This document shows, one piece after another, positions 3 to 37,743 of a DNA stretch of 64,000 nucleotides. Where the stretch lies: the NCBI GenBank assembly GCA_002280565.1, contig NCEF01000002.1, positions 62,001 to 126,000 of the forward strand. Direction: 5' to 3'. The notes beneath the pieces are model-generated. The model made no database searches and was not told the DNA's origin. It saw only the letters and a program-made list of their open reading frames with translations. Position numbers and translations under genes: made by a program. Numbering within the stretch: the first letter of the stretch is position 1; the number at the start of each line of letters is the position of its first letter. This stretch comes from Sphingomonas sp. 32-66-10. Its GTDB lineage: Bacteria; Pseudomonadota; Alphaproteobacteria; Sphingomonadales; Sphingomonadaceae.

Positions 3-1124
3 GGCAAGCTGGCATGGCGCGCGCTGCACCCGGTGCTGCCGAGCAAGGACGAGTTCCCCTACACCATTCGCGTTCTGTCGGACATTACCGAGTCGAACGG
101 CTCGTCGTCGATGGCGACGGTGTGCGGCGGTTCGCTGTCGATGATGGACGCGGGCGTTCCGCTCAAGCGTCCGGTGTCGGGCATCGCCATGGGCCTGATC
201 CTGGAAGGCAAGGATTTCGCGATCCTGTCCGACATTCTGGGTGACGAGGATCACCTCGGCGACATGGACTTCAAGGTTGCCGGCACGTCCGAAGGCATCA
301 CCACGATGCAGATGGACATCAAGGTCGCCGGCATCACCGACGAGATCATGCGCGTCGCGCTGGCACAGGCCAAGGAAGGCCGCGCGCACATTCTGGGCGA
401 AATGGCCAAGGCGCTGGGCGAAACCCGCACCGAGCTGTCGGCGCATGCTCCGCGCATCGAGACGATGCAGATCGACAAGTCGAAGATCCGCGACGTCATC
501 GGCACCGGCGGCAAGGTGATCCGCGAGATCGTCGCGACCACCGGCGCCAAGGTCGACATCGACGACGAGGGTGTGATCAAGGTCAGCTCGTCCGACGTCA
601 GCCAGATCGAAGCCGCGATGAACTGGATCAAGGGCATCGTCGAAGAGGCCGAGGTCGGCAAGGTCTATAACGGCAAGGTCGTCAACCTCGTTGATTTCGG
701 GGCGTTCGTGAACTTCATGGGCGGCAAGGACGGTCTCGTCCATGTGTCCGAGATCAAGAACGAGCGCGTCGAGAAGGTCAGCGACGTCCTGAGCGAAGGC
801 CAGGAGGTCAAGGTCAAGGTGCTCGAGATCGACCAGCGCGGCAAGGTGCGCCTGTCGATGCGCGTCGTCGATCAGGAAACCGGCGAAGAGCTGGAAGACA
901 CCCGTCCGGCGCGCGAACCGCGTGAGCGCGGCGAGCGTGGTGAGCGCGAAGGCGGCCGTGGCGGCGATCGTCGTCGCGAGGGTGGCCGTGGTGGCGACCG
1001 CGATCGTGGCCCGCGCCGCGACCGTGGTGACCGCAACGATCGCCCGGCGCGTTCGGAATCGAAGGATGAGGGCGGCGAGAATATCGGCCTCCCCGCTTTC
1101 CTGACCGGCGGCAGCGACGACTGA
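3..1124 (+). CDS. pnp: Polyribonucleotide nucleotidyltransferase, C-terminal part (5' truncated by window)
   Basis: PNPase degrades RNA 3'-to-5' by phosphorolysis and is a degradosome partner. The visible 373 codons cover the end of the second RNase PH domain ([18 protein letters not shown] is typical), a KH domain with [10 protein letters not shown] near 480-600, and an S1 domain with NLVDFGAFV and DGLVHVSEI near 660-860. The tail is Arg/Gly/Asp-rich with repeated ERGER and GGRGGDR blocks, a common RNA- or partner-binding extension in alphaproteobacteria. The start lies upstream of the window. A strong intrinsic terminator follows, so pnp ends its transcript here. Confidence 0.97.
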
Positions 1125-1150
1125 TCGTCTGTCGATCGCAAGAATGAAGA

Positions 1151-1180
1151 GGGCTCCGGGAAACCGGGGCCCTTTTTCTT
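1151..1180 (+). terminator. Rho-independent terminator of pnp
   Basis: A 9-bp stem (GGGCTCCGG with CCGGGGCCC, one G-U pair) closes a GAAA tetraloop and is followed at once by TTTTTCTT. It starts 27 nt after the pnp stop. Confidence 0.9.
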
Positions 1181-1248
1181 GGCGCACCGTTTGCCCGGTC
1201 CGACAACAGGCGATAGCGTAGGGCGTCCCGTTCCTCACGCTCAGGATT

Positions 1249-3081
1249 ATGCCTGTGACCTTGCGTCTTGCCCTTCCGCTCCTGCTCGCTGGCGCCGCCG
1301 CCCCCGCGCTGGTTGCGAATGCCGCGCCACAGGCGGCCACCCTCACCGCCGATACCCGGGCGGAGGACGCCCGGCTCAACGCGTTTCTCGATGCTGCGTT
1401 CGCCGCGAATGTCGCGCTAAGTCCGGAAAGCCAGACCGCGCTGGGCCTCAAAACCAATTACGACAAGCTCGACGACTATACCCGCGCCGATGGCGCCAAA
1501 CGTATGGCGACGGCCGAGGCGACGCTCACGGAAATGCGCGCGAAATTCGATCCGGCGAAGCTCGGACCACAGGCGCGGCTGAGTTATCGCCTGTTCGAAA
1601 CCCAGGTCGAACGGTCGCGCGCAGCCTACAAGTTCCGCGACTATGGCTTTCCGGTGTCGACCAATGGCAGCCCGGCGGGGCAGATCCCGGTATTCCTGAT
1701 CAACAATCACCGCATCGACAGTGTCGCCGATGCCCGCGCCTATATCGCGCGGATCGGGGAGGTCGAGCGCGTGATGCGCGAGGTCGCGGCGACGATGCGC
1801 GATCAGGCGGAGAAGGGTATCGTGCCGCCGAAGATGGTGTTCAAACCTGCGCGTGAGGACGCGCGCAAGGTCATCACCGGCGCGCCGTTCGGTCCCGGCG
1901 CGGACAGCACCTTGCTCGCCGATTTCCGCAAGAAGGTCGGCGCGCTCAACAGTGCCGATGCCGAGAAGGCCGCGCTGATCGCCGATGCAGAGAAAGCGCT
2001 GACCGGCCCGTTCAAGCGCGGCTTCGACACGCTGTTCGCGGTGCTCGACGAGATCGAGCCGAAATCCAAGGGCAATGACGGTGCATGGAGCCTGCCCAAT
2101 GGTGCGGCCTTTTATGCCAACCGGCTGGCGCAGAACACGACGACCGATCTGACCGCCGAGCAGATCCACCAGATCGGCCTAGATCAGGTCGCCGCGATCC
2201 GCCGGGAGATGGAGGCGGTCAAGATGCGGGTCGGCTATACGGGCAGCCTCGAAAGCTTTTTCGATGCGATCCGCACCGACCCCAAGTTCAAATATCCCGA
2301 CACCGATGCCGGCCGCGAGGCCTATCTGACCGAAGCGCGCGCGGTGGTCGCCAGGATGATGGAGGCAGCGCCACGCTGGTTCCACCGCCTGCCCAAGGCC
2401 AAGCTGGAGGTGCGCGCGGTCGAGAAATGGCGCGAGGGGACGGCGTCGGTCGCCTTTTACAACCGCCCTGCGCCCGATGGGTCGCGCCCCGGCATCTACT
2501 ACGTCAACCTCGCCAATATGGACCAGGTGCAGAAGATCCAGCTGGAGGGGATTGCGGTGCACGAAGGCGCGCCGGGGCATCATTTCCAGATCGCGCGCGC
2601 GATGGAGCTGGAGGGGCTGCCCAAGTTCCGCCGGTTCGGCGGGTACAGCGTCTATAGCGAGGGCTGGGGCCTCTATACCGAGCGGCTGGCGAAGGAGATG
2701 GGCGGCTATGCCGATCCCTATTCGGAATTCGGCATGCTCTCGCTCCAGATGTGGCGCGCGATCCGGCTGGTGACCGATACCGGGCTGCACGCGAAAAAGT
2801 GGAGCCGCGAACAGGCGATCGACTATTTCAAGGCGAACTCGTCGATCTCGGCCGCGGATATCGAGCGTGAGGTCAACCGCTACATCAACAATCCTGGGCA
2901 GGCGACGAGCTATATGATCGGCCAGCTCAAGATCGCCGAATTGCGCAAGAAGGCGGAAACCGCGCTGGGCGACCGGTTCGACATCCGCGATTTCCACGAG
3001 GTCGTGCTGGCGAACGGCGCGGTGCCGCTCAATGTGCTGGAGGAAGAGGTCGACCGCTACATCGCGAGCAACAAGGCATGA
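1249..3081 (+). CDS. DUF885 family protein, putative secreted metallohydrolase
   Basis: The 610-residue protein has a Sec-type signal (LRLALPLLLAGAAAPALVANA), so it is probably periplasmic. The DUF885 signature VHEGAPGHHFQ sits near residues 437-447, with H438, E439 and H444/H445 as likely metal ligands or catalytic residues; the family is widely annotated as peptidase-like but its substrates are mostly undefined. The ATG at 1249 is chosen because the signal peptide begins there. The stop overlaps the next gene's start (ATGA), suggesting translational coupling with the serine hydrolase downstream. Membership is clear, the exact reaction is not. Confidence 0.85.
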   Translation: MPVTLRLALPLLLAGAAAPALVANAAPQAATLTADTRAEDARLNAFLDAAFAANVALSPESQTALGLKTNYDKLDDYTRADGAKRMATAEATLTEMRAKFDPAKLGPQARLSYRLFETQVERSRAAYKFRDYGFPVSTNGSPAGQIPVFLINNHRIDSVADARAYIARIGEVERVMREVAATMRDQAEKGIVPPKMVFKPAREDARKVITGAPFGPGADSTLLADFRKKVGALNSADAEKAALIADAEKALTGPFKRGFDTLFAVLDEIEPKSKGNDGAWSLPNGAAFYANRLAQNTTTDLTAEQIHQIGLDQVAAIRREMEAVKMRVGYTGSLESFFDAIRTDPKFKYPDTDAGREAYLTEARAVVARMMEAAPRWFHRLPKAKLEVRAVEKWREGTASVAFYNRPAPDGSRPGIYYVNLANMDQVQKIQLEGIAVHEGAPGHHFQIARAMELEGLPKFRRFGGYSVYSEGWGLYTERLAKEMGGYADPYSEFGMLSLQMWRAIRLVTDTGLHAKKWSREQAIDYFKANSSISAADIEREVNRYINNPGQATSYMIGQLKIAELRKKAETALGDRFDIRDFHEVVLANGAVPLNVLEEEVDRYIASNKA

Positions 3082-4226
3082 GGGCGCCCGCCGTCGCGCT
3101 GGTCGCGGCTGCGACGCTGGCGGGCTGTGCGGCCACCGGCCCGGCCGAGGTGCGGGTCGTGTTCGATGCCAAGGGCGTGACGGCGGCGCGCGCCAGCGGC
3201 TTGGCGGATCGCGCCACCGGCCGTCGCGTCACCGCCGACGATCCCGTGCGAATCGCCAGCATCTCGAAGTTGGTGGTGGCGCTCGGCGTGATGCGCATGG
3301 TCGAGGCGGGGCAGCTCGACCTCGATCGCGACGTGTCGGAGATATTGGGATGGCAGGTGCGTAACCCGGCCTTTCCCGATGCGCCGGTAACGCTGCGCCA
3401 CTTGCTGTCGCACCAGTCGGGATTGATCGATCCGGACGAGTATCGCGTGCCGCTTGGCGCTTCGCTTGCCGATGTGATCGCGCAGCCCGCGCTGTGGGAC
3501 GCGCAGCATCGGCCGGGCAGCCACTTCCGCTATTCCAACGTCGCCTTTCCGGTGATCGCGAGCGTGAAGGAGAAGGCGGGCGGCGAGCGGTTCGACAGGC
3601 TGATGCAGCGCCATGTGCTCGCGCCGCTCAAGCTCGATGCCTGTTTCAACTGGTCGACCTGTTCGGACGCCAAGATCGCGCGGCATGTCGTGCTGTATCG
3701 CGCGAGCGGTGAGGTCGCGCTGGACGACCTCAAGGGCGAGCGGCCCGCTTGCCCGGTGATCGCCAAGCAAGGCTGCGACCTTGCCGGATATCGGCTGGGT
3801 GAGAATGGCGCGCTGTTTTCGCCCCAGGGCGGGCTGCGCGCGTCGATGCGCGACCTGGCGGTGATCGGCGCAATGCTGATCCGCAATGATGGGAGCTTCC
3901 TGACCCCCGCGTCGATCGCCGAGCTGGAGCGCGTTGCGTGGCGCTTTGACGGCGGCAATGGCGATACGAGCGGCGGCTTCTACTGCCAATATGGGCTGGC
4001 GGTGACGACCTTGCCGACCCAGCGGCAGGGTTGCGACGATCGCCTGTTCGACGATGGCCGCACGCGGATCGGCCATGCGGGGGAGGCTTATGGCCTGCGC
4101 TCGGGCCTGTGGATCGACCGCGCGGCGGGGAAGGGCGTCGCCTTTTTCGCCACCGCGACCCCGCCGGTGAGCAAGGGACGCTCGGCATTCAGCGTCGAGG
4201 AAGAGCGCTTGGCGAAGGGGAAATAG
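3078..4226 (+). CDS. Serine hydrolase, beta-lactamase (class C-like) fold lipoprotein
   Basis: A 382-residue protein with lipobox LAGC (lipidated Cys17), hence probably membrane-anchored. The penicillin-binding/class C motifs are present: SISK at 61-64 (nucleophile Ser61 and Lys64), YSN at 152-154, and HAG at 333-335 in the place of KTG. TLRHLLSHQSGL is typical of the esterase/D-aminopeptidase branch. Substrate cannot be read from sequence; peptidoglycan peptides or esters are the usual options. Translation is probably coupled to the upstream DUF885 gene by a 4-nt overlap. Confidence 0.87.
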   Translation: MRAPAVALVAAATLAGCAATGPAEVRVVFDAKGVTAARASGLADRATGRRVTADDPVRIASISKLVVALGVMRMVEAGQLDLDRDVSEILGWQVRNPAFPDAPVTLRHLLSHQSGLIDPDEYRVPLGASLADVIAQPALWDAQHRPGSHFRYSNVAFPVIASVKEKAGGERFDRLMQRHVLAPLKLDACFNWSTCSDAKIARHVVLYRASGEVALDDLKGERPACPVIAKQGCDLAGYRLGENGALFSPQGGLRASMRDLAVIGAMLIRNDGSFLTPASIAELERVAWRFDGGNGDTSGGFYCQYGLAVTTLPTQRQGCDDRLFDDGRTRIGHAGEAYGLRSGLWIDRAAGKGVAFFATATPPVSKGRSAFSVEEERLAKGK

Positions 4227-34416: not shown

Positions 34417-34770
34417 GTGCGTCGTCATCTCTATCTGATCGCCGGGTTCCTGTGCCTTGGCCTCGCGGTGATCGGGGCGGTGCTGCCGGTGATGCCGACG
34501 ACCGTGTTCGTGATCATGGCCGCCTATTGCTTCGCGCGCAGCTCGCCCGCGCTCGAACGCCGCTTGCTCGAACATCCGCGCTTTGGCCCGCACATCGCGC
34601 GCTGGCGCGTGAACGGCGCGGTCAGCCGTAGCGGGAAGATTGCCGCGACCATCGCCTTCGCCATCAGCATCGCGCTGACTCTCGCATTCACCGCCATGCC
34701 CTGGCCGCTGATTCCGATCGGCGCGGCGGTCGTGATTGGCGGCTGGCTGTGGACCCGGCCCGAAGCCTGA
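34417..34770 (+). CDS. YbaN family (DUF454) inner membrane protein
   Basis: A 117-residue membrane protein with about three hydrophobic segments. The pattern GFLCLGLAVIGAVLPVMPTTVFVIMAAYCFARSSP followed by RWRVNGAVSRSGK is diagnostic of DUF454. Function unknown. The start is a GTG at 34417 without a clear ribosome site. It sits between fliA and fliC but has no known flagellar link. Confidence 0.87.
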   Translation: MRRHLYLIAGFLCLGLAVIGAVLPVMPTTVFVIMAAYCFARSSPALERRLLEHPRFGPHIARWRVNGAVSRSGKIAATIAFAISIALTLAFTAMPWPLIPIGAAVVIGGWLWTRPEA

Positions 34771-34828
34771 CGCCTTGCCCCGCGCGCAGTCCCCGTTAGG
34801 GTCGCGCAGGTCCAATCAGGGGGTTTCC

Positions 34829-36108
34829 ATGAAGCGTATCTTCGCCGCCGCATTGCTCTGCACCGCGCTTGCCGCGCCGGCCTTTGCCCAGACCGCCGCC
34901 CCCGCGCCGGTCACCAGCGCCGCGCCAGCGACCGACTGGACGGTGAAGCCTGAATGGATTTCGGCGCATGTCCGCTTCCTCGCCGGGCCTGAATTGCAGG
35001 GGCGCGGTAGCGCGACGCGCGACGAGGCGATTGCTGCCGCCTATGTCGCGGCACGCTTTCAGGGCTATGGGCTGCAACCCGCGCCGGGCGCGGACTCATA
35101 TGTGCAGAAGGTGAAGGTCATCCGTCCGCGTCTCGACGGGGAACCGACGGTCATGGTCGCGGGCAAGGCGGTGAAGGGGGCCACGCTGATCCTGGGGGGC
35201 GCGGATCGCGCGGCGGGCAATGTGGCGGTCTATGCCGGCGACGATCCAGCGGCGATCCCGGCCGGCGAGGTGCTGTTCATGGCCAGCGCGAACATCTCCC
35301 CCTCGGCGGCGATCCGCGCGACGCGCGGCAAGGGGACCAAGCTGCTCGTGCTGCGCGCGAGCGAGGCGACGGCGAAATTGTCCTGATCAGCCCGGGTGAA
35401 CCGGTCGAGATGAAGCTGAACCTGATCCGCGAGGAGGTCGAGACGACCAACGCGATCGGCTATCTGCCCGGCACCGATCCCAAGGCCGGAGTGATCCTGC
35501 TTGCCGCGCATGTCGATCATCTCGGCGTCCAGTCCGACGGGACGGTGATGTATGGCGCGAATGACGATGCGTCGGGCGTCGCCGCCGTGCTCGAACTCGC
35601 CCATGCGTTGAGCAGCGGCAAACGGCACAAGCGCGGCATCCTGTTTGCCGCGTTCGGGGCGGAGGAGATGGGCGGGTTCGGATCGCGCGCCTTTGCCGCC
35701 GCGCCGCCGGTGCCGCTTGGCGACATCGTCGCCAACCTCGCCTTCGAAATGATCGGCGCGCAGGATCCCAAGCTGCCCGCGGGCACGATGATGATGACCG
35801 GGTTCGAACGCTCGACGCTCGGCCCGGCGCTGGTCGAACGCGGCGCACTGGTGGCGAAGGACCCCTATCCCGAGCAGAACTTCTTCGCGCGATCCGACAA
35901 CTACCAGCTCGCGCTGCGCGGCGTGGTGGCGCACACGATTTCAGGTTGGGCGGTAACTCCGACCTATCACTCGCCGCAGGATACGATCGCCAATCTCGAC
36001 ATCCCGTTCATGGCCCGCGCGGTCCAGTCGCTGATCGGCCCGGTGCGCTGGCTCGCCGATGGCGACTATCGCCCCGACTGGACCCCCGGCGGCAAACCGG
36101 GCGAGTAA
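34829..36108 (+). pseudogene. M28 family (Zn aminopeptidase-like) secreted peptidase, interrupted by a frameshift
   Basis: Two frames give one protein. The first (34829-35386) has a signal peptide (IFAAALLCTALAAPAFA), LAGPELQGRGSATRDEA and a PA-like domain up to VLRASEAT. The second, readable from about 35362 as DGEIVLISPGEPVEMKL to the stop at 36108, has the M28 metal site: HVDHLG, NDDASGVAAV, GAEEMGGFGSRAF and the late TPTYHSPQDT. The junction at about 35355-35375 behaves as a one-base deletion; the first frame stops at 35386. No classical slippery heptamer is visible. It is either an inactivated gene or a sequence error. Confidence 0.85.
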
Positions 36109-36151: not shown

Positions 36152-36186
36152 AAAGAAAAACCCCGGCGGCCTTTCGACCACCGGGG
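36152..36186 (-). terminator. Rho-independent terminator of fliC
   Basis: On the minus strand CCCCGGTGG pairs with CCGCCGGGG (one bulge) and is followed by TTTTTCTTT. It lies about 85 bases beyond the fliC stop. Confidence 0.85.
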
Positions 36187-36268
36187 CTTCCTCGCATGCC
36201 CTTCCAACAGGGAAGGGTGACCGGCCGTGGCGCCTGTCAGGGGGGGTGACGCCCCGACCGGCACACGC

Positions 36269-37672
36269 TTAGCGAAGCAGCGAAAGAACGTTCTGCTGCG
36301 ACTGGTTGGCCTGGGCCAGCATCGCGGTCGATGCCTGGCTCAGGATCTGCGCCTTGGCGAGCGCCGTCGTTTCGGCCGAGAAATCGGCGTCTTCGATACG
36401 GCTGCGCGCTTCGGTCAGGTTGGTGACGTTGCTGGTCAGGTTGTTGACGACCGATTCCAGACGGCTCTGGCTGGCGCCAAGGCCGGCGCGGACCGTATTC
36501 ACCGTGGTGAGCAGCGCGTCGATCGTGGCGAGCGAGCTGTTCGCGGCCGCGGAGGTCGCAACCGACAGGCCGGTCGTCTCGATATCGTCGCCGACCGAGA
36601 CCACGATGTCGTCGCCAACTTCAGCCGCGATCTCGTCGCCCACTTCGGCGGCGATCAGGTCGCCTTCCGCAGCTGCAATCTGGTCGCCGACCGAGACGGT
36701 GATGTCGTCCCCTTCGCTCACGACGATGTCGTCGCCTTCCGCAGCGAGAACTTCGTCGCCGACCACAACCGCGATATCGTCACCGATATTGCCGCCAAAG
36801 CCGCCGTCGATATCGTCCTGGGTCGCAGGGCGCATCAAGCTGGCGTCGACGTCAGCCTGAGTGGCCACGCGGGTTGCACCGGCGGTAACATCGTCGGCGG
36901 TCGCAGCGCGGGTCACGCCCGCGGTCACGTCGGCGGCGGTCGCCGCACGGGTCGTGCCCGCATCGACATCGTCCTGCGTCGCGGCGCGGGTTGCCCCTGC
37001 CGTCACGTCATCCGCCGTCGCGGCGCGGGTTGCTCCCGCGGTCACGTCTGCAGCAGTCGCGGCGCGGGTTGCACCGGCGGTGACGTCATCGGCGGTCGCC
37101 TCGCGGGTCGTGCCCGCATCGACATCCGCCTGGGTCGCGGCACGGGTGCCGGCCGACATGCTGCTGAGGTCGATATTGCCGATGTTGATCGCGACCGATT
37201 CACCCGAATTATAACCGGTCTGGATCGTCGTCGTGGTGCCCGCACCGCCCGAGCTGGTGGTGAAGAGCGAAACGCCGTTGAAGTTGGTGGTCGTCAGCGC
37301 CGACGAGATCTGCGTGGTCAGCGCGGTCACTTCCGACTGAAGGTTGGTGCGGTCGCTGTCCGAATAGGTGCCGGACGCCGACTGGACCGACAGCTCGCGG
37401 ATGCGCTGCAGCATGTTGGTGACTTCGCTCAGCGCGCCTTCTGCGGTCTGGGCAAGGCTGACGCCGTCATTGGCGTTGCGGATCGCCTGGCTCATGCCGC
37501 GGATCGACGAGGTCATCGTCGATGCGATGGCGAGGCCGGCGGCGTCGTCCTTCGAAGTATTGATGCGCTTGCCAGTCGACAGACGCTCCATGGCGGTCTG
37601 CAGCGAGGCCGACGCCATCTTCGAAGCATTCGCGGCACGCATGCTCGCGATGTTCGTTCCGATAACAGTCAT
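36269..37672 (-). CDS. fliC: Flagellin FliC with a tandem-repeat central domain
   Basis: A 467-residue filament protein. Conserved D0/D1 ends: [20 protein letters not shown] to about residue 165 and [39 protein letters not shown] onward to the QNVLSLLR terminus. Between them the variable region is made of nine 13-residue repeats (174-289) and nine 8-residue repeats (296-367), rich in Asp and lacking aromatic residues. The start at 37672 has GGAGACAAG upstream; the open frame upstream is not coding. It is the only flagellin in the window. A FliA-type promoter precedes it and a terminator follows. No flaF or flbT is adjacent. Confidence 0.96.
36572..36787 (-). repeat. Nine 24-bp tandem repeats in fliC (8-residue units)
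   Basis: Units follow x-G-D-x-I/V-x-x-x: [64 protein letters not shown] and [10 protein letters not shown] is invariant and position 5 is Ile in eight of nine. Confidence 0.95.
36806..37153 (-). repeat. Nine 39-bp tandem repeats in fliC (13-residue units)
   Basis: Consensus A-G-A/T-T-R-A-A-T-A/Q-A/D-D-V-T/D, for example [13 protein letters not shown] and [13 protein letters not shown]. The first unit lacks one residue and the last ([13 protein letters not shown]) is diverged. TAADVT and QDDVD variants alternate through the array. Confidence 0.95.
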
Positions 37673-37743
37673 GTCTTGTCTCCGTTCAATCCGGCGTCTC
37701 CCGTTCCCCCCTGAATGCGAGAGAGCCCGAGCCGCCAATGGGG

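Follow-up and report, generated by a model that had tools for sequence, protein, structure and literature searches.

The outer domains of flagellins are highly variable, and their origins are poorly traced. How such a domain may come to consist of short tandem units, and what those units then become, is the question raised by the fliC gene in the window, a 64,000-nucleotide stretch of DNA from Sphingomonas sp. 32-66-10. The gene (36269..37672, minus strand) is an intact open reading frame of 467 aa that contains both flagellin domains, each above its Pfam cut-off (Flagellin_N, 6.8e-39; Flagellin_C, 1e-24). The N-terminal filament-core part, which we take to be D0/D1, comprises residues 1-165 (37178..37672, minus strand; Flagellin_N at residues 4-139), and the C-terminal filament-core part comprises residues 369-467 and the stop codon (36269..36568, minus strand; Flagellin_C at residues 382-466). 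Between them, in the position of the outer domain (D2), lie two arrays. The first consists of nine 13-residue units with the consensus G-A-T-R-A-A-T-A/Q-x-D-V-T/D-A (residues 174-290; 36803..37153, minus strand), the second of nine 8-residue units with the consensus V-G-D-D-I-x-x-x (residues 296-367; 36572..36787, minus strand); in the translation they are joined by five residues (291-295; 36788..36802, minus strand). Pfam lists no credible domain between Flagellin_N and Flagellin_C, and no known D2/D3 family is matched.

The gene adjoins flagellar genes and is, besides FlgL, the only flagellin with a PF00669 match in the genome (83% complete). The best explanation of the locus, to which we give an even chance as a whole, is that fliC encodes an ordinary filament-forming flagellin, predicted to assemble, whose outer domain is folded and of fixed size. 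The gene is followed by a stem-loop with a T tail (36156..36191, minus strand, 16-pair stem), which is a hint of a terminator, as the scan expects 1.3 such structures per region. Downstream of fliA, a peptidase gene (34736-36108, plus strand) is split into two ORFs in different frames by either a frameshift or an assembly error; the two halves share one open frame in loci L041, L042 and L043 (464, 478 and 465 codons, respectively). A 495-codon ORF running antisense through fliC (36227-37714, plus strand) is a high-GC frame effect, and nothing points to a gene.

The layout given in the preliminary description, nine 13-residue and nine 8-residue units with their coordinates, is correct. Self-match amounts to 0.70 for the 13-residue period and 0.52 for the 8-residue period, and none of 10,000 shuffles per array, scored by the best value over periods 4-24, reaches the observed value (maximum 0.35). 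The 39- and 24-bp DNA units are likewise recovered, both periods being reported by TRF, and the G-D pair of the 8-mers, described as invariant from the window alone, is so in all 45 units of the five species that carry the arrays (G2 and D3). Position 4 of the 8-mer varies (D, E, Q, L, M, T and others). The 13-mers of the same five species share four invariant residues, namely R4, A6, T7 and D10 (45 of 45 units), and Thr also occupies position 3 in 40 and position 12 in 26 of the 45 units. The ninth 13-mer is the most diverged unit of its array. Across the five species the 8-mer array contains 20-22 acidic residues and no basic ones; aromatic residues, Cys and Lys are absent from both arrays.

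The arrays are rare, as had been supposed. A search with the central region (E <= 0.001) covered 295 genomes of the genus as well as samples from the family (397 genomes) and the class (385 genomes), and returned matches in 14, 5 and 3 genomes, respectively. The arrays themselves are present in five of the 295 genus genomes (the window's own, G068, G256, G025 and G232; E of 1e-97 or better), and no array flagellin was seen in the family and class samples. Nine other genus genomes match weakly (4e-5 to 1e-3), and the family and class samples add four and two further weakly matching genomes. Those weak matches that were opened are not flagellins: three of nine in the genus (L028, L035, L036), three of four in the family (L037, L038, L040) and one of three in the class (L050). 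The last (genome G753; 58-3198, minus strand) is a 1046-codon ORF with tandem 8-residue NGYGDQVA units of its own and an end that, read by eye, is FtsQ-like. In a set of 44 flagellins taken from the retrieved loci, which is biased because it was picked by similarity and length, self-match exceeds 0.8 in the five array proteins only, the next value being 0.42. The named records that share the arrays all belong to Sphingomonas (MAG bin06, MAG BWSM_12 and strain R647). A full-text literature search, mostly at the level of titles and abstracts, yielded no description of such a flagellin.

A possible source of the arrays is found in other sphingomonad flagellins. At the same place in the protein, these carry a module of about 50 residues, unnamed in Pfam, of the form GD-x-x-I-G-x-x-Y-T-V-T-x-x-D-V-x-x-G-A ... 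G-x-x-V-x-L-x-x-G-D-x-I-Y/W (L011, L013, L044-L048, L060, L094, L096, L101, L104 and L110-L113). A search with the module of L011 matches 15 of the 295 genus genomes, five of which are the array genomes, matched partly through the shared flank; a search with a larger double module matches 5 of the 295. In the family, the module profile matches 4 of 199 genomes, each time in a flagellin, and it finds no match in the window's own genome. In L045, L046 and L048 (538, 544 and 531 aa) the double module recurs as a whole and near-exactly, at a distance of about 116-121 residues, a recent large-scale duplication as read from these sequences, and L047 (426 aa) has one set. In L096, L013 and L094 the module is flanked on both sides by runs such as AVDAVDAVDAV or EAVEAQEAVEAV, which suggests that this lineage also expands three-residue repeats.

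The 13-mer occupies the same place as the first half of the module, Y/R-T-V-T-x-x-D-V-x-x-G-A, and resembles it. When 47 non-array flagellins are ranked by a matrix built from 21 array units, the top 13 are module carriers matched at the module motif, three more carriers (L096, L046, L101) following lower down, and the first two score above every one of 4,700 shuffles. First in the ranking is L112 (GATRTVTAEDVAYGAT), in which the Arg of the array is retained. L110-L112, which belong to another genus of the family and keep this Arg, have a single-copy module, and no other single-copy sequence comes closer to the 13-mer. In the reverse test, run on five sequences, the first half of the module fits the 13-mer better than random reorderings of the same residues, of which only 1, 2, 0, 4 and 8 of 5,000 are as good. 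Other results weigh against this kinship: a 13-mer HMM in local mode beat 550 shuffles but was outscored by 1 of 4,700 (12.8 vs 10.9) and so lost its significance, hhalign of the module against the arrays reaches a weak probability of 18% (P 0.0013), the module profile has no match in the window's own genome, and the array scores of the module matrix drop to 3.8-10.7 if the sister clade is left out. For the second half of the module, V-x-L-x-x-G-D-x-I, against the 8-mer, 418, 735, 736, 201 and 346 of 5,000 reorderings are as good; the 8-mer HMM is outscored by shuffles, the 8-mer matrix is likewise not significant, and G-D-x6-G-D pairs, the spacing of the 8-mer, occur in 5 of 43 non-array flagellins. 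In a midpoint-rooted tree built from the concatenated core ends of 44 flagellins, the array clade (support 100/98) joins L013 (97/84) and then L011 (100/97), each with a single copy of the module. Owing to shared ancestry, the related motifs do not count as independent observations. Taken together, these comparisons show the 13-mer to be akin to the first half of the module, whereas the resemblance of the 8-mer to the second half is not significant. The module of the sister flagellins thus appears to be a traceable source for the first array at least.

The preliminary description had further proposed that the 39- and 24-bp units change copy number by slippage and so vary the filament surface. 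Tandem units are indeed present, and the sister flagellins L045, L046 and L048 have undergone whole-module duplication on a larger scale (L047 retaining one set). Nevertheless, a contingency locus of this kind is scarcely credible here. All five array species have 9+9 units in a protein of 467 aa; four of the proteins align over 467 columns with zero gaps, and the fifth matches them in its length and its units. The identical copy numbers that had been named as evidence against slippage are therefore what is observed, in a comparison between species: the proteins come from different species, and the three aligned to the window protein are 88-94% identical to it. Rather than being near-identical, the 24-bp copies agree with the reference copy at 63-83% of positions. 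The rate at which identical residues of different units share the same codon is 0.47-0.61 for the 13-mers and 0.56-0.66 for the 8-mers, and codon usage alone predicts 0.47-0.58 (six neighbouring genes) or 0.51-0.70 (fliC ends). In raw comparisons, the observed rate lies below the fliC-end expectation in 7 of 10 cases, above the neighbouring-gene expectation in 9 of 10 and above both in 3 of 10; it is clearly high in L043 (0.605, with 0.47-0.51 expected). A fair reading is that synonymous sites between units are near saturation, any exchange being limited and confined to certain lineages. Because the rate is approximately that predicted from codon usage, the unit duplications are old, the units having nevertheless remained similar at the protein level. 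By these comparisons, recent slippage did not shape the arrays, and the proposal of slippage-driven variation is not supported. Over ten species pairs, dN/dS is 0.03-0.13 in the 13-mer and 0.09-0.30 in the 8-mer array, as compared to 0.12-0.24 in the N core and 0.04-0.20 in the C core; the low value of the 13-mer array speaks for a domain under selection and against a free linker. The arrays (36572-37153) look like an old, strictly kept surface domain and not like a repeat that changes its length. We note that dS for the same pairs is higher in the arrays (13-mers 0.52-0.89, 8-mers 0.37-0.86) than in the flagellin ends (N core 0.17-0.32, C core 0.12-0.42), by a factor of about two to three.

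Whether this domain is folded is addressed by a coupling within the 13-mer and by structure prediction. Among 20 distinct motifs from 16 non-array flagellins, Gln-8 and Asp-12 are both present in 9, both absent in 11 and never split, and the 16 distinct array units have either Q/D (11) or A/T (5) at these positions. The Fisher value of 6e-6 for this coupling is a guide only, since it is inflated by shared descent. The i,i+4 coupling, together with the Thr cap and an Asp three positions further along, points to a short helix in the 13-mer. The full-length AlphaFold2 model, built from four sequences, has a helix that starts one residue past T7 in all nine units, at an array pLDDT below 50; predicted alone, residues 168-372 reach 41.6, with helices out of the register of the full-length model. 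The very low confidence overall (pLDDT about 31-60 on the arrays, mostly below 50) would fit a flexible, mostly disordered acidic spacer whose repeats are kept for composition and charge only, as would the lack of aromatic residues, Cys and Lys and the purely acidic charges of the 8-mers. We consider such a spacer possible, if unlikely: an input of four sequences is by itself enough to explain the low confidence, a charge-hydropathy plot places both arrays just within the folded region, and the exact positions that are invariant, the fixed copy number and the low dN/dS argue against a selection for composition alone. An improbable reading is that the two or three Thr per unit make the 13-mer array a scaffold for O-glycans, arranged as a regular glycan lattice. 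It would account for the conservation of Thr at positions 7, 3 and 12, and flagellin O-glycosylation has been described in Caulobacter (PMC7591256, as far as its available text goes); helix capping explains T7 equally well, however, and module flagellins retain T7 in a different sequence context. That the 8-mer array is a beta-roll-like solenoid binding calcium or another cation seems very improbable. Nine invariant G-D pairs among 20-22 acidic and no basic residues are what such a solenoid would offer, but D3 alone is invariant among the acidic positions, position 4 being variable. The RTX beta-roll, with its short, acidic Gly-Asp repeats, has a period of 9. The 8-mer array is similar in its short acidic Gly-Asp repeats and differs in its period of 8; it does not follow the nonapeptide GGxGxDxUx, and a Pfam scan at E up to 10 lists no PF00353.

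Comparisons with phage proteins and with the PDB gave no credible relative. The kinship of the first array with phage tail fibres, suggested in the preliminary description, is not borne out: a tblastn search of phage records and comparisons with PHROGs and viral contigs gave nothing credible, with the reservation that the low-complexity filter of BLAST may hide matches. One PDB chain, a putative tail fibre that matches the 8-mer array at E 0.027, gives the sole weak hint. By sequence, the PDB holds no credible relative (best 13-mer match E 3.4; module profile E 0.64). Tako8, a PDB entry matched by the 8-mers at E 2.8e-5, was rejected, as no single stretch passes and the match was taken to reflect repeat and composition.

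The explanation that we favour, with even chances of being right, is thus a folded repeat domain of fixed size that arose by old, separate amplification of one or more motifs of the module. One motif, probably two, would have been amplified separately long ago from a module that is elsewhere present once or a few times. In each 13-mer, T-R-A-A may form a short strand that leads into a short helix with T7 and D10 as its caps, and each 8-mer may be a strand that closes in a G-D turn. A flagellin chain must leave the filament core and come back; here it may leave along the first array and return along the second, giving a rod of matched length with nine strand-plus-helix units out and nine strand-plus-turn units back, in which the invariant Arg of the 13-mer and the invariant Asp of the 8-mer could face each other. 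The resulting filament surface would be regular and acidic and might act in filament-filament, surface or fluid contacts. The stricter version, in which the arrays are two lanes of one rod with layers paired by this Arg and this Asp, 9:9 is a rule of length matching and both halves of the module were amplified in step, is improbable. If true, it would mean a new repeat fold on the flagellar filament and a natural rod of tunable length, present in very many copies on each filament. In either version, a small module of sister flagellins apparently became an 18-unit repeat domain and then froze in number, and the array flagellin would be a dated, testable case of domain birth through motif amplification.

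Among known systems, FliC (PF00669 / PF00700) is like the window protein in its conserved N and C cores, which have the usual length and place, and differs in the outer domain, which here consists of two arrays of short units. The giant flagellins of Oceanospirillales, as far as the available text describes them, have duplicated DE regions in proteins of over 1000 aa (or over 800 aa) (PMC6248924). They share with the window flagellin an outer part that grew through internal duplication, inheritance by vertical descent and the problem of a chain that runs out and back, but their duplicated domains are large, whereas the window protein has nine short units per array and, at 467 aa, falls short of the giant size (> about 1000 aa). 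In sheathed, screw-like and ridged filaments, outer domains are reported to be able to pair up as dimers that build sheaths or screws, and to help cells swim through viscous media (PMC8931119, PMC10256154). The idea that outer domains order the filament surface is shared, although those domains are globular with solved structures and the window flagellin is known from sequence alone. In plant-associated Sphingomonas, two flagellins split swimming and attachment (PMC13015449); the words 'repeat' and 'hypervariable' do not occur in its text. Given these sheaths, the swimming in viscous media and the division of labour between Sphingomonas flagellins, contacts with fluid, other filaments or surfaces would be natural candidates for the role of the arrays. 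A further counterpart is the sphingomonad module, which has the same place in the flagellin and the same first motif with its Gln-8/Asp-12 coupling, present in one to four copies where the window flagellin has nine 13-mers and nine 8-mers.
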